Shown here in pieces: positions 22,223 to 38,777 of a DNA stretch of 38,777 nt. Each line of letters opens with the position of its first letter. Within the stretch, counting starts at the first letter, position 1. The stretch lies in IMG/VR virus record IMGVR_UViG_3300023272_000007, positions 1 through 38,777 of that record. One strand, given 5' to 3'. The notes beneath the pieces are model-generated. The model was not told the origin of the DNA. It saw only the letters and a list, made by a program, of their open reading frames with translations, and searched no databases. The position numbers were made by a program, and so were the translations under genes. The DNA is from a virus.

Positions 22223-23212
22223 TTAGTTGGTATAAAAGTTAAGTGGATTTGGTTCTATTTTTTCTTTCGGGTTCTTATACTCTACCATTCTTAATGTTTT
22301 CTTTTCAAATAAAATTATTGTAGGATCAGGCATATAGCCTCTTTTCTTTTTGTGAGTAGTAAGCAACAATAAATTATACGCTTGGTCTTTCTCTTTTCCT
22401 ATATGCCTTATAATATCGCTATCAAGTTTAGAATAAATTTCAGGCGGAATTTCTTTAGGCTTCTCCAGTGTGAATAATATCTGCGAACTGTTTTCAACTT
22501 CACCGCTTCCTTTCCCTGAATATAAATCTAAATTACCCTCTTTTGAATTAACTCTATCGGTTTGCGATAAAAGTAATATTGGAACTTTTAATATTAAAGC
22601 TATTTCTTTCAGCTTTCTCATTACCCCGGTTAAACCTTGATATTCATTTTTATCTCCGTGCTGAATTAATCCAACATAGTCAATGATTATCAAAGCTGTT
22701 TTATTTTCCAGTAATTCCTCCAATGCTTTCACGTAAGGTATTACTTCATTTATATGAACACGCTTAACAATGCTTACAATATTTTTAAGTTTGTGAATTT
22801 CTTCCTCGATACATTTATCAAATTCCTTATCCATTTTTTTAACAAGCATTTCAATTTTATAAGTTGCCGTACCTAAAAGCATCTGCACGTATCTTTCAAA
22901 TAAATCTATTTCGCTTGTTTCGAGGGAAAACATAAGAACCAAGTAATTTGTATTTCTACAAACATTTAAACCGACATTCATTGCGAATGCAGTCTTACCA
23001 ATATTCGTAGGAGATACAACTGTGATTACTTCACTCGGTCTAAATCCCCCTAAGTTTTCATCTATATTTGCAAATCCTAAATTGACCTTTCTATCTTCCA
23101 GTGTATCAACGTAATCTTTGTACGCCTGATACTTACCGCTCATAGTATACACAGTCTGATAATCGAACGAGGCGTATTTTTTTATGAGTTGGTTTAATTT
23201 TTCTTCTATCAT
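22223..23212 (-). CDS. Replicative DNA helicase, DnaB-type core without N-domain
   Basis: RecA-type motor. P-loop SPTNIGKTAFAMN (67-79) with Lys73 and Thr74, FSLETS with Glu98, Walker B IIIDY with Asp178, and LLLSQTDRV with Gln217 and Arg220. These are the H1, H1a, H2 and H3 motifs of DnaB. The DnaB N-terminal domain is missing (329 residues, motor begins near residue 40), as in many phage helicases that load with their own initiator. The initiator candidate lies two genes upstream. Confidence 0.9.
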   Translation of the reverse strand: MIEEKLNQLIKKYASFDYQTVYTMSGKYQAYKDYVDTLEDRKVNLGFANIDENLGGFRPSEVITVVSPTNIGKTAFAMNVGLNVCRNTNYLVLMFSLETSEIDLFERYVQMLLGTATYKIEMLVKKMDKEFDKCIEEEIHKLKNIVSIVKRVHINEVIPYVKALEELLENKTALIIIDYVGLIQHGDKNEYQGLTGVMRKLKEIALILKVPILLLSQTDRVNSKEGNLDLYSGKGSGEVENSSQILFTLEKPKEIPPEIYSKLDSDIIRHIGKEKDQAYNLLLLTTHKKKRGYMPDPTIILFEKKTLRMVEYKNPKEKIEPNPLNFYTN

Positions 23213-23446: not shown

Positions 23447-24163
23447 TTATTGATTTAATTTTATATATCCGCTTTTTGAGTTATCGGATTCGGGAATCTT
23501 TTCCCGCCACTTATAAAAAAACTTATCGGTCATTGGATAGTATTTATCCTCACTTGCATTGTCTTTTACACTTTGAAAAGCTAATTGAAAATTCTTTAAA
23601 TCTACACTTCCCCCAATGTTTCCTGCACAGTCTCCGATTACTTGCTCTCGCCCTCTTTGCCTACTTAGAGGGAACTGATTAAAAATTTTTTCAAGTTCGC
23701 TATATATGACTTTATAATCTACAAGTTCATTTACAGTTTCACTTTCAGCATTTGGTAAACCATTTGCTAAAGGTTTGGTTGGGTTTTGGTTAAGCAAATT
23801 TGGATTGCCTCCCTGCTTTCCTGCATTTTTACGCTTGTTTGATAGTTCTACGAGTTTTACCATTCTACGAGAATATATCGCTTTATCTTCAATTCTTCGT
23901 GAAAAAATCCCTAAGTTTTCTAAAATTTTAAGTACATTTTTGGTTTGGTTTAATTCCATACTTAGTGCCGTAGCTATCATTTGTACTGACATAGGCTTTT
24001 TATTCACTGTTAAATATCCTCTCTCCTCACTTTCCCACATTAAGAAAATCATTTCAAGCCATATCATTTTTTGTTCCCTTGTTAATGAAGATACTGCAGG
24101 GTCTTTTTTCCAATCTCCAATGTAAAACGGCATTGCAGGTAAATCATATTTTTTATGTGCCAA
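23447..24163 (-). CDS. Replication initiator-like protein (DUF1376 / DnaD-like)
   Basis: Residues 10-75 (MPFYIGDWKKDPAVSSLTRE, then WLEMIFLMWESEERG) match the winged-helix start of DUF1376-type phage replication proteins. The linker KRKNAGKQGGNPNLLNQNP is typical of that group, followed by a C-terminal domain (about 145-230) that may contact the helicase. The gene lies just upstream of the helicase, the usual initiator-loader-helicase order. Confidence 0.8.
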   Translation of the reverse strand: MAHKKYDLPAMPFYIGDWKKDPAVSSLTREQKMIWLEMIFLMWESEERGYLTVNKKPMSVQMIATALSMELNQTKNVLKILENLGIFSRRIEDKAIYSRRMVKLVELSNKRKNAGKQGGNPNLLNQNPTKPLANGLPNAESETVNELVDYKVIYSELEKIFNQFPLSRQRGREQVIGDCAGNIGGSVDLKNFQLAFQSVKDNASEDKYYPMTDKFFYKWREKIPESDNSKSGYIKLNQ

Positions 24164-24371
24164 TGGGGGTTATAAAGTTCTTTTTAATTTCTTCTACCAC
24201 TTTTAAAAAATCTTCTTTATTTACAACTATATTACCGCTAATATTATATTTAGCTTCGTCATCTTCAAATCTTAATATTTCAATATAAACTACGCTACCT
24301 TTATCTATAAACCTAATTTCTTCTTCCATACTTTCATTATCATTTGAAAGCCCATAAGTAATTTTACTCAT
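24153..24371 (-). CDS. Hypothetical protein (72 aa)
   Basis: Acidic small protein with SVVYIEILRFEDDEAKYNIS and KEDFLKVVEEIKKNF at the C-terminal helix. Its stop overlaps the initiator start by 11 bases. The start lies 14 bases after the U-run of a large hairpin, so it is the first gene of the replication unit and could be subject to attenuation. The leader reads AATATT before ATG. Confidence 0.6.
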   Translation of the reverse strand: MSKITYGLSNDNESMEEEIRFIDKGSVVYIEILRFEDDEAKYNISGNIVVNKEDFLKVVEEIKKNFITPIGT

Positions 24372-24385
24372 AATATTTATTTAAT

Positions 24386-24463
24386 AAAAAAATCCCGTAA
24401 CTCTCTATTCGACTTCAAGGCGTGTGCTCCTATGGTCGAAAACTTTTTAAGAATTACGGGATT
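24386..24463 (-). promoter_or_regulatory. Leader hairpin with terminator-like end (possible attenuator)
   Basis: AATCCCGTAA (24463-24454) pairs perfectly with TTACGGGATT (24400-24391), followed by seven T. The 53-base loop holds a second perfect stem, TTCGAC paired with GTCGAA. It lies 14 bases before the ATG at 24371. The form suggests a terminator or attenuator in the mRNA leader of the replication genes. Confidence 0.6.
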
Positions 24464-28250: not shown

Positions 28251-28676
28251 TTAGTAGTCAATGCTGTTAATGTCGGGGATAACTATGTTTAGTTCTTTCT
28301 CTGCGTACATTTTCACCTCATTAACATAATTGCTAAATTCCAAAGAATTAAGTTTACGGGTTGAACCTGCGACCTCTATTTCCTCTCCTTTGAATAAATC
28401 CGTTTTCATTTCTTTTGGTAAAAACATTTTCTTAAAGGTAAAATGCAGGTCTTCTACTTCAAATTTATTGTAGCCTAATTCTTGGGCAATAATGTTATAA
28501 ATTGCCCATAGGTAACGGTTAGATTTATTGCTTCTTTTGTCTCTCCATTTTTTAACTACAATTGAATAATCACCGCAATTTAAAGCATTGGCATAATTAT
28601 AAAAATCCGTTTCATTTTCAAAGATTAATTCGTTTTTGTTTATAATTTTAGCTTTAAATTGCGGGTTAATATCCAT
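28251..28676 (-). CDS. NinB-like recombination protein
   Basis: Residues 40-140 follow the NinB/Orf pattern: VVKKWRDKRSNKSNRYLWAI (basic, single-stranded DNA contact), IIAQELGYNKFEVEDLHFTF, a MFLPKEM turn, then STRKLNSLEFSNYVNEVKMY and a C-terminal LNIVIPDINSI. Lambda NinB binds single-stranded DNA and helps RecA-type recombination. Sits with an early gene possibly acting on DNA at 29150-29743. Confidence 0.72.
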   Translation of the reverse strand: MDINPQFKAKIINKNELIFENETDFYNYANALNCGDYSIVVKKWRDKRSNKSNRYLWAIYNIIAQELGYNKFEVEDLHFTFKKMFLPKEMKTDLFKGEEIEVAGSTRKLNSLEFSNYVNEVKMYAEKELNIVIPDINSIDY

Positions 28677-28691
28677 TGAAGTTATTATTGT

Positions 28692-32259: not shown

Positions 32260-32279
32260 GTAAGATTTAATTTTCTTAC
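32260..32279 (-). promoter_or_regulatory. 5'-end hairpin of the early operon mRNA
   Basis: GTAAGA (32279-32274) pairs exactly with TCTTAC (32265-32260) around AAATTAAA. The predicted transcription start is at about 32277, so the RNA begins with this stem, and the ATG at 32257 follows after two bases. Confidence 0.45.
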
Positions 32280-32283
32280 ATAC

Positions 32284-32312
32284 AATTTAATATGATTTAA
32301 TCGTATTGTCAA
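32284..32312 (-). promoter_or_regulatory. Promoter of the early operon
   Basis: TTGACA (32312-32307), 17 bases, TAAATT (32289-32284), directly after the terminator at 32343-32366. Predicted start near 32277. It also fits TTG-N20-TAnnTT of Bacteroidota. It would drive genes 32257 to about 24584. Confidence 0.65.
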
Positions 32313-32342
32313 GTACAAAATAAATTATTTTTTAGCTATAAC

Positions 32343-32366
32343 AAAAAGCACTCATTGCAAGTGCTT
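32343..32366 (-). terminator. Intrinsic terminator before the early operon
   Basis: AAGCACT (32366-32360) pairs exactly with AGTGCTT (32352-32346), loop TGCAATG, followed by TTTTTGTT. It ends the unit of genes 34210-32386, 20 bases after the last stop, and the next promoter starts 30 bases further on. Confidence 0.75.
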
Positions 32367-32385
32367 AGGTTTGGAGAAGCGGGGA

Positions 32386-32748
32386 TTAATATTCTTTTAG
32401 GAATGGGTTGGGGTGTTCGTGGACTATCCTGAATTGTGCATCTAAAACAAGTTTGATTTTACTTTCTTGAAAGGCAATGAGATTTTTATTGTTCTTTACT
32501 ATCTCTTTAACCATTGATTCTCGATATTCTTCCAAGCCCTCCCTTTCTAAGCTCACTACAGATGCACTTTGGTCACTGGAGTAAATTTCGCCAATGCCAC
32601 TAATGGGGATATGCTTTGTTTTATTTATTCCCATATCCTGTTTTACTACATATTTTTCTTTGCCTTTAGAGAGGATTTCCCAAGAAATAATCATTTCTGA
32701 ATACACTTTATCCCTGCAACTAATAACATATTTATAAATCTTTTCCAT
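32386..32748 (-). CDS. Hypothetical early protein (120 aa)
   Basis: Alpha/beta-looking protein: KYVISCRDKVYSEMIISWEI, then GEIYSSDQSASVVSLEREGL and KNLIAFQESKIKLVLDAQFR. No membrane segment. Last gene of its transcription unit, followed by the terminator. Family not recognised. Confidence 0.55.
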   Translation of the reverse strand: MEKIYKYVISCRDKVYSEMIISWEILSKGKEKYVVKQDMGINKTKHIPISGIGEIYSSDQSASVVSLEREGLEEYRESMVKEIVKNNKNLIAFQESKIKLVLDAQFRIVHEHPNPFLKEY

Positions 32749-32751
32749 AAT

Positions 32752-33000
32752 TTAAGGGTTAAGGGTTATGTTGCATTTCTTTAAAAATCTCTCTTTATCT
32801 TCCAATGTCGGAAAGACCGCAAAATAAGTGTAGCTGATTTCAAAAAATACGAATACGAAATTAATCTTATTGCCGTAAGTTAACTTTGTTGTAAGATTTT
32901 CAACCCACAACCCTAAAGCAACGCCGGAGAACCATTTAAGTCTCCAACCGCCTGTATACTCAAAGTTATCTGTTTTGTAATGGTCTGTTGTTATGTCCAT
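32752..33000 (-). CDS. Hypothetical protein (82 aa)
   Basis: I choose the ATG at 33000 (MDITTDHYKTDNFEYTGGWR), which overlaps the upstream stop by 10 bases. A start at 33054 would overlap by over 60 bases. The centre is beta-rich and aromatic (KINFVFVFFEISYTYFAVFP), as in a small beta-sandwich, ending TLEDKERFLKKCNI. Function unknown. Confidence 0.55.
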   Translation of the reverse strand: MDITTDHYKTDNFEYTGGWRLKWFSGVALGLWVENLTTKLTYGNKINFVFVFFEISYTYFAVFPTLEDKERFLKKCNITLNP

Positions 33001-33446
33001 TTTTCTAAGTTTAAAATTTTTATTGCGGAGGGCGAGAAAGATAATGGCAAACAATCTCTTTTGCAGTCATTGATGAAATCCTCTAAAGTTAAAATTATTC
33101 TTTTGCTGTAATCAATTTCAATATCCTCTAATTCTCCACTTCCTTCATCTTCTATGTAATGCCATTTGCCATTTTCAGTACTAAACTTTAAATCCGAAAA
33201 TCTTTCATCTATGCAACTAAAAAACATAAACTTTATTTCATCATGCCTTTTTAAATTGTTATCGTAGCTTACCCACCCCTTAAAATACTTCTCAATAAGT
33301 TCCGGGGTAAATGGCTGGGAAAAGAAAGTATTTGCACTAAAGATTTTACTTATAATAAGGCTATCGTCAACAAGTCCCATAAGAAAATCATCTGTACGAA
33401 CTCGCTCTACATACTCCATAAACCCTATTGCCTTTTGATTATCCAT
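32991..33446 (-). CDS. Hypothetical protein (151 aa)
   Basis: Acidic and aromatic protein with FFSQPFTPELIEKYFKGWVS, FMFFSCIDERFSDLKFS and RIILTLEDFINDCKRDCLP. No motif found. Overlaps both neighbours by 8-10 bases, so it belongs to a tight operon headed by 33695-34210. Confidence 0.55.
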   Translation of the reverse strand: MDNQKAIGFMEYVERVRTDDFLMGLVDDSLIISKIFSANTFFSQPFTPELIEKYFKGWVSYDNNLKRHDEIKFMFFSCIDERFSDLKFSTENGKWHYIEDEGSGELEDIEIDYSKRIILTLEDFINDCKRDCLPLSFSPSAIKILNLEKWT

Positions 33447-33687
33447 TGTTAAGCTCCTTGTCTGTGAGTTCTTGGGGAAGATAATCTCTGTATTCTAGTT
33501 GCTCACTAATACCGCGATAAACGTTAACCCTGTCCATAGTTACCGTGCACATTACTAACGCGTATTTCCTCTTTTCGGATTCAAAGAGGGAAAGGAGCTT
33601 GTCGGCTTCAACCTCAAAAAAGTTACTGCCTAACGAATATTTTTCTTTTGCAAATCTTTTAAATACTTCTATTATTTCTTCTTTCAT
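33439..33687 (-). CDS. Hypothetical protein (82 aa)
   Basis: Helical start (KEEIIEVFKRFAKEKYSLGS), then EVEADKLLSLFESEKRKYAL and a short C-terminal region with TMDRVNVYRGIS. No recognised family. Coupled to the next gene by eight bases of overlap. Confidence 0.5.
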   Translation of the reverse strand: MKEEIIEVFKRFAKEKYSLGSNFFEVEADKLLSLFESEKRKYALVMCTVTMDRVNVYRGISEQLEYRDYLPQELTDKELNNG

Positions 33688-33694
33688 TCATTGG

Positions 33695-34210
33695 TTAGGG
33701 GGTTTTCTTCGTTAGTAAGTAAAAATTGTTATCGCTGACTGCCTGTGTTGGAATTTTTGGCAACAAAGTATGAGGAACAATATGAGCATCATTCTCCAGT
33801 TCTACTTTGGAATTGAGAGGGTTTACTTTAATTTCAAGAACTATGTTTTTGGGATTGTCGGGAGACTTTAACGTGATAGTTGGTTTTATTTCTGCTTCCG
33901 GGAAAAAGTAAATTTGATTTTGAGAATCGACCAACCCGTTATTATAAAATAAAGGAAATTTTTTGCCCCTAAGTGAATCAACTAGTTCTAATTCTTCTTT
34001 TGTGGTTTGTGCGACTGTCAGATTTAGATTAACGGAACGCTTTCCATCAAGGTCAAGAGTGTTTCCATCTGCGAAAGTAATTTCCTGCGTAACTGTTTTG
34101 TCAGTTAGCGTGCCTGTTATCAAATGCCCTAATGAATGGATATTGCCGTTAAAATATACAAGCAAATCATCCCCTCCAAATAACCTATAACGCCTTATAT
34201 TATTTTTCAT
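33695..34210 (-). CDS. Beta-rich protein, structural-looking, outside the virion cluster (171 aa)
   Basis: Segments such as GHLITGTLTDKTVTQEITF, SVNLNLTVAQTTKEELELVD and KPTITLKSPDNPKN resemble tail tube or adhesin beta strands. However, it heads a small early-type operon between the HNH endonuclease and unknown genes. Its mRNA is predicted to start at 34305 with a pseudoknot leader. The leader before the ATG (AATAAAAATATT) is the same as that of the tail tube gene at 10652. Function unknown. Confidence 0.55.
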   Translation of the reverse strand: MKNNIRRYRLFGGDDLLVYFNGNIHSLGHLITGTLTDKTVTQEITFADGNTLDLDGKRSVNLNLTVAQTTKEELELVDSLRGKKFPLFYNNGLVDSQNQIYFFPEAEIKPTITLKSPDNPKNIVLEIKVNPLNSKVELENDAHIVPHTLLPKIPTQAVSDNNFYLLTKKTP

Positions 34211-34232
34211 AATATTTTTATTAAAATAAAAA

Positions 34233-34305
34233 GGGCTTCAAACCAACATCAGACACGGCAAGTGTTATCAGTCAGTAAGAAACCCCAAAATTGTTTTGCC
34301 GTGTC
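34233..34305 (-). promoter_or_regulatory. Predicted pseudoknot in the 5' leader
   Basis: Stem 1: GACACGGCAA (34305-34296) with TTGCCGTGTC (34261-34252), 10 perfect pairs. The stem 1 loop holds GGGTTTC (34285-34279), which pairs with GAAGCCC (34239-34233, one U-G), crossing stem 1 as an H-type pseudoknot. Five U follow, and the ATG comes at 34210. Transcription is predicted to start at 34305, the first base of stem 1. Confidence 0.5.
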
Positions 34306-34311
34306 GATTAC

Positions 34312-34340
34312 AAATTACAAACTTTATTTTTAAATGTCAA
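34312..34340 (-). promoter_or_regulatory. Promoter for the 34210-32386 operon
   Basis: TTGACA (34340-34335), 17 bases, TAATTT (34317-34312), close in sequence and equal in spacing to the promoters at 32284 and 985. Predicted start is 34305. Located in the gap after the HNH gene. Confidence 0.6.
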
Positions 34341-34402
34341 ATGGAAAAGAAAAAAGCGGAGTGTGTTTTTCAGTGAAGGCAATAAACCACTTATTATGTT
34401 TT

Positions 34403-34753
34403 TTACTTTCTAAGCCCTATTTTAAACGCATGAGCTACATTTTCTTTGCAAGTAACCCATTCAAGGTTATCCCACCTAAAATTATCTTTGTTTCCGTCAA
34501 TATGGTTTACCTGTGGTTTGTTGTCGGGGTTATCCACAAATAAAATGGCAACCCACCTATGAATGGCAATTATTTTTTTGACACTATCTTTACATATAAT
34601 AACGTATGGATAGCCTTTGTGATTCTTGCTTGGTCTTAAGAATTTTTCTTCCCTATGAGAAGGATTCCTAAAACTTTTCATTCTGCCAAAATTAGATAAC
34701 TCGTAAGATTCTCTATATTCCTTCAGCGGAATTGGTTTAAATACTTCTTCCAT
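34403..34753 (-). CDS. NUMOD4-HNH homing-type endonuclease
   Basis: Residues 5-50 are NUMOD4-like (YRESYELSNFGRMKSFRNP). Residues 60-110 are the HNH domain: IHRWVAILFV, VNHIDGNKDNFRWDNLEWV (83-100) with His84, Asp86 and Asn91/Asn96, then KENVAHAFK. Complete at 116 residues. Free-standing mobile nuclease, placed at a boundary between transcription units. Its ATG is 5 bases after the U-run of a terminator-like hairpin. Confidence 0.9.
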   Translation of the reverse strand: MEEVFKPIPLKEYRESYELSNFGRMKSFRNPSHREEKFLRPSKNHKGYPYVIICKDSVKKIIAIHRWVAILFVDNPDNKPQVNHIDGNKDNFRWDNLEWVTCKENVAHAFKIGLRK

Positions 34754-34758
34754 AAAAT

Positions 34759-34808
34759 AAAAAAACTCTCAATGCGTCTCGGCTACCACACCTTAAACAT
34801 TGAGAGTT
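34759..34808 (-). promoter_or_regulatory. Terminator-like hairpin in the HNH gene leader
   Basis: AACTCTCAATG (34808-34798) pairs perfectly with CATTGAGAGTT (34774-34764), 23-base loop, seven U (34765-34759), then ATG at 34753. An intrinsic terminator placed here would block the HNH mRNA unless it is read through. Confidence 0.6.
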
Positions 34809-34820
34809 CTAAAATATAAA

Positions 34821-34849
34821 ATTGTATTGTGGTAGTTTGAGACTTACAA
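34821..34849 (-). promoter_or_regulatory. Possible promoter of the HNH gene
   Basis: TTGTAA (34849-34844), 17 bases, TACAAT (34826-34821). Predicted start near 34814, six bases before the hairpin at 34808. Sits just after the terminator at 34857-34895. Confidence 0.4.
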
Positions 34850-34856
34850 ATATAAT

Positions 34857-34895
34857 AAAAAACCGCACAACTAAAAACTAAAAAAGTTGCACGGC
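34857..34895 (-). terminator. Intrinsic terminator of the lysis and membrane operon
   Basis: GCCGTGCAACT (34895-34885) and AGTTGTGCGGT (34872-34862) form an 11-bp stem on the minus-strand RNA when three U-G pairs are allowed, followed by six U. On the plus strand some of these would be A-C mismatches, so the signal is for minus-strand transcription. Confidence 0.75.
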
Positions 34896-34936
34896 TTTCT
34901 TTTTTAACTAACCCAATCGAGTGAAAAACTTATACA

Positions 34937-34995
34937 AGCCCGATAACCGCTTTGAATTACCGGGGCTATGAATTTACTCTACCAAATGGATAGAG
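34937..34995 (-). other. Two adjacent hairpins before the terminator
   Basis: Hairpin A: CTCTA (34995-34991) with TAGAG (34981-34977) plus two inner C-G pairs. Hairpin B: AGCCCCGGTAA (34967-34957) with TTATCGGGCT (34946-34937), 10 pairs and one bulge. With the terminator they make a structured 3' end of about 140 bases after the last ORF. Confidence 0.45.
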
Positions 34996-35005
34996 AAACA
35001 AAATC

Positions 35006-35098
35006 TTACTTTCTGCCGAACCAACTCATAATAGAGTTAAGTATGTAACAGCAACAGGCTATTGTACCGCTAAGATAAAATGCAGTTTCTAATGACAT
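35006..35098 (-). CDS. Very small membrane protein (30 aa)
   Basis: MSLETAFYLSGTIACCCYIL followed by NSIMSWFGRK is one membrane segment with a basic end, three adjacent cysteines inside it. It starts five bases after the stop of the 18-codon frame. Position at the end of the lysis operon and composition suggest a small lysis or host-membrane peptide. No family known. Confidence 0.45.
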   Translation of the reverse strand: MSLETAFYLSGTIACCCYILNSIMSWFGRK

Positions 35099-35103
35099 AA
35101 TTA

Positions 35104-35160
35104 TTATTTTTTATTTAAGATTGAAATTAATTGCTCTAAGCTCAAATTGTGAAATGACAT
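35104..35160 (-). CDS. Possible 18-residue peptide gene
   Basis: MSFHNLSLEQLISILNKK, ATG at 35160, six bases after the stop of the 90-residue gene and five bases before the next start. It may be a real peptide or only a spacer frame that keeps ribosomes on the message. The regular spacing is the main support. Confidence 0.3.
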   Translation of the reverse strand: MSFHNLSLEQLISILNKK

Positions 35161-35166
35161 ATTATT

Positions 35167-35439
35167 TTAATTTGTTTGATTTTCATTTGGCTTTAATGCT
35201 TGTGGTTTGACTTCCTGCTTATCTACGGCACTCTGATTGCCCTTAAATCCCGATAATAGGTAGATGAATAGGCAAGTCGGTACTAACCAGTCTGTGAGCG
35301 TCGGAGACAGGAAATTCAGGTAGTCGGGCTTCATTATCAAGATAGCTCCTACCATACCCAGTTTCGATATTAAGCCGTAAAATGTTGTCTTGTAATTGCT
35401 TCCGAATAATCTCTCTAAGAAATCAGGTATAATTGGCAT
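35167..35439 (-). CDS. Two-segment membrane protein, holin candidate (90 aa)
   Basis: Two hydrophobic stretches, GLISKLGMVGAILIM and LVPTCLFIYLLSG, with a short linker (KPDYLNFLSPTLTDW), then a polar lysine/glutamine tail. Size and topology fit a class II holin. Located in the lysis operon with the endolysin. Confidence 0.6.
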   Translation of the reverse strand: MPIIPDFLERLFGSNYKTTFYGLISKLGMVGAILIMKPDYLNFLSPTLTDWLVPTCLFIYLLSGFKGNQSAVDKQEVKPQALKPNENQTN

Positions 35440-35473
35440 AAGGTTTATTTGTATTTAGGGGAATATTATTTCT

Positions 35474-35839
35474 TTATTTAACTTGTAAAAGCACTGAACG
35501 ATAATACTCATTCCTTGCCTCTAAATCTAATTTGCTTAGTAAGGGTATTTCCTTAATCAAAAAAACTTTTTCAGTTTCGCTTAGTTCGGGAGGGTCTAAT
35601 CTTCCTATGAAAATCATAATCTTTTCCCAAATACTTAAAGCATCATTAAGAATTTTAATTACCTCCCTGAATATTTGTAAGGCTTGGCTGACATCGAACT
35701 TACCAACTTTTTCCAATGAATACATACTCATTCCTAATTCACGGAATGGATTGTCAACTCTCCCTATCGGCAATTTATCTACGTCAGGTATTTTGTATTT
35801 TGGCTCTACTTCTTTACCGAGTTCGTTGGAAAAAGGCAT
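35474..35839 (-). CDS. Hypothetical soluble protein (121 aa)
   Basis: I start at ATG 35839 (MPFSNELGKEVEPKYKIP), four bases after the upstream stop. A longer frame from 35905 would overlap the neighbour by 62 bases and add an unlikely hydrophobic leader. Helical C-terminus (VFLIKEIPLLSKLDLEARNE). Within the lysis and membrane operon, function unknown. Confidence 0.55.
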   Translation of the reverse strand: MPFSNELGKEVEPKYKIPDVDKLPIGRVDNPFRELGMSMYSLEKVGKFDVSQALQIFREVIKILNDALSIWEKIMIFIGRLDPPELSETEKVFLIKEIPLLSKLDLEARNEYYRSVLLQVK

Positions 35840-35843
35840 AATG

Positions 35844-36035
35844 TTAAAAGTTATATTTGTTGAAAATATTATAAATAAAACCCGAAGCCATTTTAGGCAA
35901 TACAAAGATTCTTTGAAATAAATTCATATTAGATATTTTTAAAATCAATCCCTCTGCCTTTATATATCGTTCGCACATTTCTTCGTACTTTAATAACTTT
36001 GCTTCATTTGTCAGTAATTCGTTTTGTTCGTTCAT
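35844..36035 (-). CDS. Hypothetical protein (63 aa)
   Basis: Helical N-terminal half (ELLTNEAKLLKYEEMCERYI) and a moderately hydrophobic second half (MNLFQRIFVLPKMASGFIYN), perhaps membrane-associated. Preceded by AACAAAAAGAA, no clear Shine-Dalgarno. Not recognised. Confidence 0.5.
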   Translation of the reverse strand: MNEQNELLTNEAKLLKYEEMCERYIKAEGLILKISNMNLFQRIFVLPKMASGFIYNIFNKYNF

Positions 36036-36071
36036 TTCTTTTTGTTTGATTGCAGGATAATTGGTAAAAAC

Positions 36072-36404
36072 TTAATCATCATCTTTCCCTTTTTTCTTTT
36101 TCTTTGCTTTCAGTTTCAATCTTCTTTCTTCGAGTTTGTCGAGGAAGTCTTTTTTAAACCCCTCATATTTGCCCGTCTGCCCGTTAATATAAAGTTTCTT
36201 CATTGCTTCTTCCTGTGCCAATTGTTCATTGTAATTAATGTCACTTTTTTCATCTACTGTGTCAATCTTTTCTTCTACATCTTCGAGTTTTTTCATCAAA
36301 CCTTTGTAACCTATCCAGCCTAATCCCGCAAGAATGATAATACCCCATAAGGAGGGGTACTTATCTGCCATATTCTTTATTAAATCCCATACATAATCTG
36401 CCAT
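36072..36404 (-). CDS. Membrane-anchored coiled-coil protein (110 aa)
   Basis: One membrane segment (about 18-34, SLWGIIILAGLGWIGYKGL) followed by a coiled coil (KKLEDVEEKIDTVDEKSD) and a highly basic end (KLKAKKKKKGKDDD). This is the layout of inner-membrane spanins and of some pinholin-like proteins. One of the few starts with an AGGAG sequence close upstream. Confidence 0.6.
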   Translation of the reverse strand: MADYVWDLIKNMADKYPSLWGIIILAGLGWIGYKGLMKKLEDVEEKIDTVDEKSDINYNEQLAQEEAMKKLYINGQTGKYEGFKKDFLDKLEERRLKLKAKKKKKGKDDD

Positions 36405-36448
36405 AAGCTCCTAATCGTTGCCACCCCTATTCGTTTATGGAAAATTAA

Positions 36449-36721
36449 TTACTCTTCGCTTGCTACAATCGCCGCAATCCATACAGCCCCGTCATAAATG
36501 TAACCCTGAAAATGTCTCGCAATATATAATCCTTTATCCGTTTCCTCTGCCGGGATATAATATGAAGTCACTGCAAATTCCTGTGAGTTAATTACATCGC
36601 CGTTTGAATCAACTACGCGATAAGTACATTGATAATGATTGTTGCTTTCACCTAAGGGCTGTAAGAGGTTTTCAAGCTCAATTTTTGCCGTTGTATTTGG
36701 CAGTGTATATTGGGTAATCAT
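36449..36721 (-). CDS. Hypothetical beta-rich protein (90 aa)
   Basis: Polar beta-type protein, TLPNTTAKIELENLLQPLGE, then YQCTYRVVDSNGDVINSQEF and IARHFQGYIYDGAVWIAAI. No signal peptide or membrane segment. Between two membrane-coil proteins in the lysis operon. Unknown, possibly a small virion or cell-binding protein. Confidence 0.55.
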   Translation of the reverse strand: MITQYTLPNTTAKIELENLLQPLGESNNHYQCTYRVVDSNGDVINSQEFAVTSYYIPAEETDKGLYIARHFQGYIYDGAVWIAAIVASEE

Positions 36722-36725
36722 AATT

Positions 36726-37046
36726 CTATTTTTTAAATTTAAGTTCTATTAATTCCTTGAATTGGTTTATCGCACCTGCAAATTGTTTTAGCTCCTGTGC
36801 GATTAAGGTTCTATCTTCTTTTAATTCACTCATAGTTATCTTTAAAAAGTCATCTCGTTTTTCCAGTCTTTTATTATATTGTTCGTGAAGATACTCTAAT
36901 CTTTGGTTGTACTGATTATGAAGAAATAAAATATATTCATTGTGTTTTTGATAGAGGAACGGAACATACCATTTTAAGAATATTCCCACCCCTATTAATG
37001 CAACTACTGGAAAACCAAAATTCTTTAATATTTCTTCTATGCTCAT
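36726..37046 (-). CDS. Membrane-anchored coiled-coil protein, holin or spanin candidate (106 aa)
   Basis: Membrane segment near 10-31 (GFPVVALIGVGIFLKWYVPF), then a long coiled coil rich in Y, N and L (NQYNQRLEYLHEQYNKRLEK) ending basic. The topology resembles BhlA/UviB-type holins and inner spanins. Its start overlaps the stop of the 40-codon gene (ATGA). Confidence 0.6.
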   Translation of the reverse strand: MSIEEILKNFGFPVVALIGVGIFLKWYVPFLYQKHNEYILFLHNQYNQRLEYLHEQYNKRLEKRDDFLKITMSELKEDRTLIAQELKQFAGAINQFKELIELKFKK

Positions 37047-37165
37047 TCAACTTCTTTCATTGTTAAAACCTTATACAGAAGATAAGGAAATTTGATAACA
37101 TAGTAAAGTAACGATAATTCTGTTTTGAGGAAGACAATAATTTTATTTTGCAGTTTATTTTTCAT
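37043..37165 (-). CDS. Small membrane protein (40 aa)
   Basis: An intact frame starts MKNKLQNKIIVFLKTELSLL and ends LTMKEVE. The centre (FLKTELSLLYYVIKFPYLLY) is hydrophobic enough for a membrane segment, with a basic N-terminus. The stop overlaps the next start as ATGA, and the frame fills part of a 294-base gap. Likely lysis accessory or small holin partner. Confidence 0.55.
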   Translation of the reverse strand: MKNKLQNKIIVFLKTELSLLYYVIKFPYLLYKVLTMKEVE

Positions 37166-37173
37166 TGTTTGAA

Positions 37174-37202
37174 TTGATTAATTTATTTAATCCTGTTACA
37201 TT
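37174..37202 (+). promoter_or_regulatory. Possible plus-strand promoter
   Basis: TTGATT (37174-37179), 17 bases, TACATT (37197-37202). It also reads TTG-N20-TACATTTC. Same spacing as the minus-strand promoters. Predicted start is 37209, the first base of a small hairpin. Confidence 0.35.
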
Positions 37203-37208
37203 TCAAAC

Positions 37209-37340
37209 CCGCAATATCGCGGACAAAACTTAAGATTTAAAAATTATAAGAAAATAAAGAGTATCAAAAACACAAATTACAATGTACGGGTTAATTTCAA
37301 TTAGCAGGTCAGAGAAGTTTAGAGCCTGCTTTTTGCGTTT
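37209..37340 (+). ncRNA. Candidate plus-strand small RNA
   Basis: Between the plus-strand promoter and a plus-strand terminator there is no reading frame. The predicted RNA starts with CCGC-AATATC-GCGG (37209-37222). Separately, AACCCG (37206-37211) could pair with CGGGTT (37287-37292), though this includes bases just before the predicted start. The RNA ends at the endolysin gene 3' edge. It would be the only transcript against the gene direction. Confidence 0.35.
37303..37340 (+). terminator. Plus-strand intrinsic terminator
   Basis: AGCAGG (37303-37308) pairs with CCTGCT (37325-37330), extended by a U-G pair on the plus-strand RNA only, followed by TTTTGCGTTTTT. The T run is on the plus strand. 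The minus strand has A there, so this is not a terminator for the endolysin gene. Confidence 0.55.
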
Positions 37341-38541: not shown

Positions 38542-38777
38542 TTCCTCCCCCTCAATTGCTCCAACATCAATTTAATTAACTCTAACCATATATCATACTT
38601 TTGCCTCACCTCAAATTCCTTAAACTTAGTTTCATCTTTAGCACCGATAATATTATTCTGAATCGGAGTAAGCCATTCAATAATAACCGCTTTTTTAGTG
38701 GAGTCGGGAATATAATTAATATCAATTGTTTGCCCGTAAGCCGAGATACTGAATGATAATAGGAGTAGGAGTAGGAG
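38538..38777 (-). CDS. Secreted small protein, C-terminal part (continues at 141-1)
   Basis: This is the 3' part of the gene described at 1-141. Bases 38538-38645 are unique and encode GAKDETKFKEFEVRQKYDIW and the last residues ending QLRGRK. The remaining bases repeat the signal-peptide part. The TGA stop (38540-38538) overlaps the ATG of the DUF3307-like gene. As drawn, the frame runs off the right edge with no start, which is what a circular join predicts. Confidence 0.75.
   Translation of the reverse strand, partial: LLLLLLLSFSISAYGQTIDINYIPDSTKKAVIIEWLTPIQNNIIGAKDETKFKEFEVRQKYDIWLELIKLMLEQLRGRK
38646..38777. repeat. Direct terminal repeat, right copy
   Basis: Identical to 1-126 up to 38771, then one extra TAGGAG unit. 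The difference sits in a short tandem repeat within a leucine-coding run, so it may be assembly slippage or real length variation. Confidence 0.9.

Follow-up and report, generated by a model that had tools for sequence, protein, structure and literature searches.

A probable family of leader RNAs pairing a 5' element with the loop of a terminator-like hairpin ahead of early and replication genes in Bacteroidota phages

We have analysed the complete IMG/VR virus record IMGVR_UViG_3300023272_000007 (hereafter the window; 38,777 bp, G+C 35%), whose minus strand carries three leaders built on a common plan: a −7 box of Bacteroidota type is followed by a 5' segment (A), by a terminator-like hairpin (hairpin 2) exposing the complement A* in its loop and, 9-21 nt beyond the hairpin, by an ATG. 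The A/A* pairing extends over 10 bp in leader 342, 8 bp in leader 348 and 7 bp in leader 24. They are probably members of a so far undescribed family of leader RNAs that act in cis in Bacteroidota phages, for which we infer a function in transcription attenuation. The genes accepted as real, chosen from the list of open reading frames (ORFs), lie on the minus strand throughout, and the recognised products are portal, capsid, terminase, DnaB-like helicase, endolysin and an HNH/NUMOD4 endonuclease. Among named phages, the closest terminase relatives occur in phages of Parabacteroides, Bacteroides and Phocaeicola; the matches also include 75 Flavobacterium records. Because these relatives are Bacteroidota phages, the promoter rules outlined for Bacteroidota in PMC6847099 (−33 TTTG, −7 TAnnTTTG, and 4-5 nucleotides (nt) from the −7 box to the start site) were applied to the window by inference. 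E. coli-type sigma-70 promoters gave no signal (60 sites vs 51 ± 6.8 in shuffles). The leaders, their parts and the genes that follow them are listed below (aa, amino acids).

34854-34753, minus strand: leader 348, ahead of the HNH/NUMOD4 gene
34854-34847, minus strand: −7 box of leader 348, TATATTTG, with the predicted start at 34842/34841
34835-34828, minus strand: A of leader 348, CTACCACA
34809-34763, minus strand: hairpin 2 of leader 348, with A* TGTGGTAG at 34790-34783, then a U tract
34403-34753, minus strand: HNH_3/NUMOD4 homing endonuclease gene, downstream of leader 348
34341-34210, minus strand: leader 342, ahead of the 171-aa gene, whose ATG is at 34210
34341-34338 and 34317-34311, minus strand: −33 TTTG and −7 TAATTTG (one T short of the consensus) of the leader 342 promoter
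34306/34305, minus strand: predicted start of leader 342
34305-34296, minus strand: A of leader 342, GACACGGCAA
34286-34232, minus strand: hairpin 2 of leader 342, with A* TTGCCGTGTC at 34261-34252, then a U tract
33695-34210, minus strand: gene of a 171-aa protein without match, downstream of leader 342
24537-24371, minus strand: leader 24, ahead of the 72-aa ORF and the replication genes
24537-24535 and 24516-24510, minus strand: −33 TTG and −7 TATATTG of the leader 24 promoter
24503-24500/24475-24472, minus strand: hairpin 1 of leader 24, GTTC/GAAC, weak (4 bp)
24489-24483, minus strand: A of leader 24, CGTGTGC
24463-24391, minus strand: hairpin 2 of leader 24, with A* GCACACG at 24427-24421, then a U tract
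24153-24371, minus strand: 72-aa ORF without match, downstream of leader 24, the first gene ahead of the replication genes
23447-24163, minus strand: replisome organiser, after the 72-aa ORF
22223-23212, minus strand: DnaB-like helicase, after the replisome organiser
17006-16971, minus strand: fourth pre-gene terminator-like hairpin (portal), 6-nt loop and no upstream partner; a non-member used as internal comparison

The pairing strand of leader 342 itself starts at the predicted +1/+2. Neither this leader nor leader 348 has a clear 5' hairpin (hairpin 1), and both would therefore be tail-loop pseudoknots of the same plan. Leader 348 shows an extra match, GTCTC/GAGAC (34843-34839/34780-34776), lying partly 5' of the predicted start. 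The window hairpins range from −19 to −28 kcal/mol and are followed by T-rich tails, which fits intrinsic terminators composed of a hairpin and a U tract. Family-library searches returned no match for the 171-aa protein (Pfam, PHROGs) or for the 72-aa ORF. A further strong terminator-like hairpin, CCGTGCAACTTTTTTAGTTTTTAGTTGTGCGG (34898-34858), ends right before the leader 348 promoter, which gives the HNH gene the look of an insulated unit. We also observed that the loops of leaders 24 (CACGCCTTGAA) and 348 (TTTAAGGTGTG) are complementary over 11 bases, near 24421-24431 and 34786-34796, each being among the other's best partners in the window.

A scan of the window for terminator-like hairpins with complementarity between their interior and the preceding 60 bases placed 24463-24391, 34286-34232 and 34810-34762 at the top of the minus strand. 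Each of the three ends 8-21 nt short of an ORF start; most lower-ranked matches had no ORF start downstream. Near-start matches at −33 or better numbered three in the window vs none in 13 shuffled windows. The minus strand contains four pre-gene terminator-like hairpins, and an upstream partner was found for all three with large loops and not for the portal one. Shuffling the tails gave p values of 0.0003 (leader 342), 0.03 (348) and 0.02 (24), and taking other window segments as tails gave 0.0025, 0.018 and 0.012, respectively; jointly, the three leaders reach p values of 3e-5 to 4e-4.

The same plan precedes replication genes in the phages elemoF, elemoA, elemoA_2-5C, Harreka, Danklef and P12002L, and in the viral records G001 and G405 together with the G405 relatives L212 and L213. 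A survey of nine named or annotated records (L220-L228) yielded 55 pre-start hairpins, eight of them at p ≤ 0.05 (2.75 expected). This survey brought out the leader of Flavobacterium phage elemoF, which is followed by a 61-aa ORF and the genes of a replication protein and a primase/helicase. BLASTN with this leader returned 70 records, 68 of Flavobacterium (elemo) phages and two of Olleya phage Harreka_1. Four leader variants were distinguished, those of elemoF, of elemoA (identical in B and D), of elemoA_2-5C and 15-3D, and of Harreka.

Covariation of the predicted loop pairing, hereafter the kiss, was seen in two comparisons. From elemoF to Harreka, GTGGAGG/CCTCCAC becomes GTGGTGG/CCACCAC in loops that are otherwise alike, one of the seven pairs being changed on both sides, and a hand alignment of elemoA with elemoA_2-5C gave two both-sided changes in seven pairs. 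Hairpin 2 of elemoF and Harreka adds three such changes in 12 pairs, and hairpin 1 one each in elemoF/Harreka and in L204 (the G405 leader)/L212. When kiss and hairpin 2 of elemoF and Harreka are taken together, 97.4% of the cells pair, with four both-sided changes, vs at most 60.5% and one such change in slid controls.

A covariance model trained on just elemoF and Harreka, with hairpin 2 only and the kiss left out, was run over 19 sources (608 kb), where it found leaders in Danklef_1, in P12002L and before the HNH gene of G001 at E values of 0.0094, 0.065 and 0.075. In 152 kb from four sources chosen after that run (L237, L228, L104 and the window), the corresponding values were 0.0024 (Danklef_1, 28538-28680), 0.016 (P12002L, 34495-34360) and 0.019, the next match having an E value of 0.85. 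All three leaders possess a complementary loop, with GGTGGAA/TTCCACC in Danklef and GGTCGTAG/CTACGACC in P12002L. The Danklef and P12002L leaders precede replication-type genes, and the elemoF replication protein partly matches Danklef gene 43. The leader 24 loop, CATAGGA[GCACACG]CCTTGAA, shares the frame ATAGGA[7]CCTTGAA with the Danklef loop, GATAGGA[TTCCACC]CCTTGAA, and is longer than the 22 nt of the latter. The leader is common to Danklef and Freya (L237 vs L238) up to the end of the U tract, immediately beyond which the two sequences part. An enlarged model, R2, gave seven matches at E ≤ 2 in 409 kb of non-training sources, namely window leaders 24 and 348 and the G405 leader, all known earlier by other means, the antisense of leader 348 and three others. 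Over 395 Bacteroidota genomes, models R1 and R2, run without a positive control, gave no match each.

Among viral contigs, 27 loci with relatives of the HNH protein were found and 22 of their leaders examined; the plan appeared only in L039 and L041, which have one leader in common. The record they come from, G001 (18.4 kb, with a terminase 41% identical), contains a second leader of this plan. It precedes a 58-aa ORF and the gene of a DUF3987/BT4734-like protein, here termed primase, and its pairing bases lie in the loop of a strong hairpin at the 5' end. G405 (L204) encodes a protein 79% identical to the G001 primase, behind a leader of unrelated sequence and the same plan (GTGGAAG/CTTCCAC), and L212 and L213 retain this leader, hairpin 1 of L212 having a compensatory A-U to U-A change. 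A mosaic border was noticed between G001 and G406 (L201 vs L205), which share the leader and the downstream genes and not the upstream gene.

Intergenic candidates among the relatives were limited to the 6-bp, weak match of L039/L041; no relatives were found via the 171-aa protein, and a leader of this kind was not seen in the two found via the replisome organiser (L169, L170). Scanning relatives of the DnaB-like helicase (34 loci, L097 left out and its record G004 scanned separately) and of the endolysin (three loci) gave no convincing member. An HNH match was present in 41 of the 395 Bacteroidota genomes, and inspection by eye of leaders with a local match among 30 loci taken from them showed the plan in none. 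A known RNA family was ruled out by the lack of any Rfam match: with Rfam 15 and E values up to 5, the window gave two chance-level matches below the gathering score, one of which, psRNA6 (E 1.4), overlaps leader 348 at 34807-34859. In L232, L229, L234, L233, L204, L201 and L039 no leader matched Rfam, and matches elsewhere were tRNA-related apart from one of miRNA type.

We dissected 13 leaders, the three of the window included. A TAnnTTTG, TAnnTTAG or TAnnTTG box lies 0-30 nt before the 5' element in all of them, window leaders 24 and 342 having the 7-base form. In five leaders (elemoF, elemoA, elemoA_2-5C, Harreka and Danklef) exactly 4 nt separate the box from hairpin 1; six others have 3-7 nt, and the remaining two, window leaders 342 and 348, lack a clear hairpin 1. 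As the distance matches the 4-5 nt to the start site given in PMC6847099, hairpin 1 probably begins at about the predicted +1 in the 10 leaders from outside the window and, as a weak 4-bp stem, in leader 24. In most relatives, A sits in the hairpin 1 loop, so the two hairpins can kiss; the predicted kiss comprises 6-10 bp at −9.7 to −20.6 kcal/mol. The loop of hairpin 2 measures 22 nt in elemoF, Harreka, Danklef and P12002L. Between hairpin 2 and the ATG lie 9-27 nt, and at least seven T occur in the 12 bases after the hairpin in 10 of the 13 leaders.

A population screen of 60 promoter-boxed pre-start hairpins from 19 sources found 13 at p ≤ 0.05 (3 expected) and six at p ≤ 0.01 (0.6 expected). 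Tails reaching −14 kcal/mol made up 18.3% of the 60 matched and 4.2% of 706 mismatched combinations. Because some members were known beforehand, the screen cannot count as unbiased, and the true leaders of Danklef and P12002L escape its hairpin picker. Eight of the 13 low-p cases are leaders described here, and five (L224, L237 at 33085, L221 twice and L225) were not counted as members. Among the latter, a minus-strand pre-start hairpin of L224 (Bacteroides phage BT2) has a long upstream match, CTGCATAGATG/CATCTATGCAG (p 0.006), as has one of L221 at 32574 on the plus strand, GGTAGGGGA/TCCCCTACC (p 0.01). L225 (Flavobacterium phage 6H) carries one minus-strand leader twice, before two 70-aa ORFs; its upstream segment GCTAGTATAATTTCGGCTG nearly equals the reverse complement of one strand of the hairpin that follows, suggesting an attenuator-like alternative fold.

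The first-pass annotation of this DNA had proposed five promoters with a shared TTG-N20-TA motif whose transcripts begin with a hairpin. All five stretches and their stems are present in the sequence. The motif occurs 91 times on the plus and 66 times on the minus strand vs about 76 per strand expected (a hand estimate from composition), a chance frequency that makes it unusable as a promoter rule here. When stems were scored as pairs plus GC pairs, 49% of 1500 random positions scored at least 8 and 1% at least 14. Those at 985 and 32284 score 8, a chance level, and lie outside the leader family; the CCGC/GCGG stem at 37174, where the motif match spans 37165-37193, does no better at 8. Far above chance are 34312 (16) and 34821 (18). 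The 10-bp pseudoknot stem claimed at 34312 is real, as is the 11-bp stem at 34821, which is the terminator-like hairpin whose loop pairs upstream. The −10 box assigned to 34821 would start the RNA 3' of the pairing strand CTACCACA; TATATTTG at 34854-34847 is the better box. The idea of transcripts starting with structure holds for the leader family, though the class is not defined by TTG-N20-TA and three of the five sites fall outside it. What had escaped that reading was the key feature, in which the 5' element pairs with a loop carried by a second, terminator-like hairpin just before the start codon, together with the third minus-strand case at 24489-24391. It is possible that the leaders protect the 5' end or are bound by a putative phage factor, as had been suggested.

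Several results weigh against a family that includes the window leaders and acts by attenuation. Under a looser measure, in which the entire hairpin interior counts and internal loops are allowed, the p values were 0.19 (leader 24), 0.027 (342) and 0.043 (348). R2 scored leaders 24 (24534-24369) and 348 (34868-34751) at E values of just 1.4 and 1.7, and leader 342 was not among its matches. Most HNH relatives have no such leader; that of L039/L041, with its 6-bp match, is weak by itself (p 0.11-0.20), and the G001 leaders singly give p values of 0.08-0.20. L214, a 78% primase relative, lacks such a leader, and a good U tract is missing from G405, L212 and L213, so the function common to the family may be other than termination. 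The shuffle control for elemoF/Harreka, based on two sequences, is weak, 33 of 500 shuffles reaching the observed value, and the kiss covariation comes from phages other than that of the window. Alternatively, the window's loop-tail complementarity might be accidental and only the pre-start terminator hairpins real, a reading to which the single p values of leaders 24 and 348 (0.01-0.04) and the many places examined lend some weight. We regard such a coincidence as very unlikely, given that complementarity is found in every one of the large-loop pre-start hairpins, with the joint p value quoted above, and that leader 24 and Danklef share both gene position and loop frame.

Taken together, comparison of the sequences supports well the architecture of the leaders, their recurrence before replication genes and the covariation of the kiss in relatives. 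Most likely, the leaders would serve as cis-acting attenuators of early and replication genes. Transcription would start at a TAnnTTTG-type promoter and first yield a short 5' element that exposes 6-10 bases; this element is a hairpin beginning near +1 in most members and single-stranded in 342 and 348. A short linker would separate it from a second hairpin with a complementary loop, followed in most members by a U tract and always within 9-27 nt by a start codon, and the two elements would kiss or form an H-type pseudoknot. The kiss could form before the 3' strand of hairpin 2 emerges, and it looks compatible with that hairpin. Because hairpin 2 alone is terminator-like and the kiss looks compatible with it, the default product would be a short RNA terminated by hairpin 2 and the U tract, and the downstream gene would be expressed when a factor or condition opens the kiss or permits read-through by the polymerase. 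The kiss may favour or oppose termination.

The distance of 9-27 nt between hairpin 2 and the AUG, seen in all leaders, and the poor U tracts of G405, L212 and L213, would also suit a control of translation in which the kissed leader blocks or gates ribosome entry, a phage protein such as a replication protein binds it, and the U tract is incidental. Structure near the AUG tunes initiation in Bacteroidota according to PMC6847099, and PMC3014915 offers precedents in the gp32 pseudoknot and the leader structures of homing endonucleases. We hold this autogenous alternative as a lesser, though real, possibility: the T-rich, intrinsic-terminator-like stretch after hairpin 2 in 10 of 13 leaders speaks against it, as does the preservation of the Danklef/Freya leader through its U tract.

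Module borders at the promoter (L201/L205) and at the U tract (Danklef/Freya), the leaders' own promoter and terminator-like end, and the 11-base complementarity between the loops of leaders 24 and 348 could alternatively point to small-RNA genes, with an 80-130-nt RNA ending in the U tract acting in trans as decoy or antisense and the downstream gene reached by read-through. This seems unlikely, as a start codon, mostly of a replication operon, follows within 9-27 nt in every member. A bolder extension of the attenuator reading, which we consider doubtful, would see a new and widespread RNA switch gating Bacteroidota phage replication genes, whose kissing complex senses an infection signal (a phage or host factor, a ligand or a competing RNA) and whose leaders, several in one phage, pair in trans through their loops, 24 with 348 over 11 bp.

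Elsewhere in the window, the first 132 bases are repeated at the end (1-132 = 38646-38777), consistent with a circular map or direct terminal repeats. Positions 347-1097 form 751 nt without a gene, with several minus-strand terminator-like hairpins, an exact Bacteroidota promoter, TTTG-N20-TATCTTTG, with the box at 881, and a 12-bp inverted repeat, GTGTTCAATGTA (968-957) and TACATTGAACAC (849-838), spanning a terminator; this region may encode a non-coding RNA.

Early-gene control in Bacteroidota phages is little known, and the literature searched shows nothing on leader RNAs there. Judged by titles or abstract openings, publications on kissing or pseudoknot leaders, terminators and Flavobacterium phage transcription describe no such leader. 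A covarying kiss between a first hairpin and a terminator-like hairpin before the AUG represents a testable switch in cultivated phages, the carriers being elemo (Flavobacterium sp. BAL314), Harreka (Olleya sp. HaHaR_3_96), and Danklef and Freya (Polaribacter). In uncultured phages, the kissing leader may mark the start of the replication operon.

Some known systems resemble these leaders in part. Riboswitches and attenuators with a pseudoknot or kissing loops likewise consist of a 5' leader with a tertiary pairing adjoining an intrinsic terminator; unlike them, the kissing leaders have no conserved aptamer core and no Rfam match, and their pairing bases vary if covarying. The put RNA of phage HK022 also forms 5'-end hairpins on early phage transcripts that act on transcription. 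Unlike the kissing leaders, put acts by suppressing distal terminators and is not known to form a loop-loop pairing with one, a comparison made on function. Type III toxin-antitoxin systems (ToxIN-like) combine tandem RNA repeats with a following ToxN/CptN/TenpN-type toxin; they were rejected here, each leader being a single unit without tandem repeat and the 171-aa protein having no such Pfam or PHROGs match. The leader pseudoknot of T4 gene 32 is an autogenous translational operator that, like the kissing leaders, belongs to a phage replication gene and lies 5' of an A+U-rich stretch and the start codon (PMC3014915). That pseudoknot stands 67 nt before the start codon, with the protein covering the ribosome site (PMC3014915), whereas the kissing leaders carry the loop on a terminator-like hairpin 9-27 nt before the AUG, with a promoter directly upstream and a binding protein that is only putative. 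The leaders of the stand-alone homing endonucleases Aeh1 mobE and T4 segB, whose structures reduce translation initiation, are alike in that a structured leader precedes an HNH-type homing endonuclease gene, as in leader 348 and G001 (PMC3014915). Unlike mobE and segB, the kissing leaders have a plan in common with replication genes and combine loop-tail or loop-loop pairing with a U tract.

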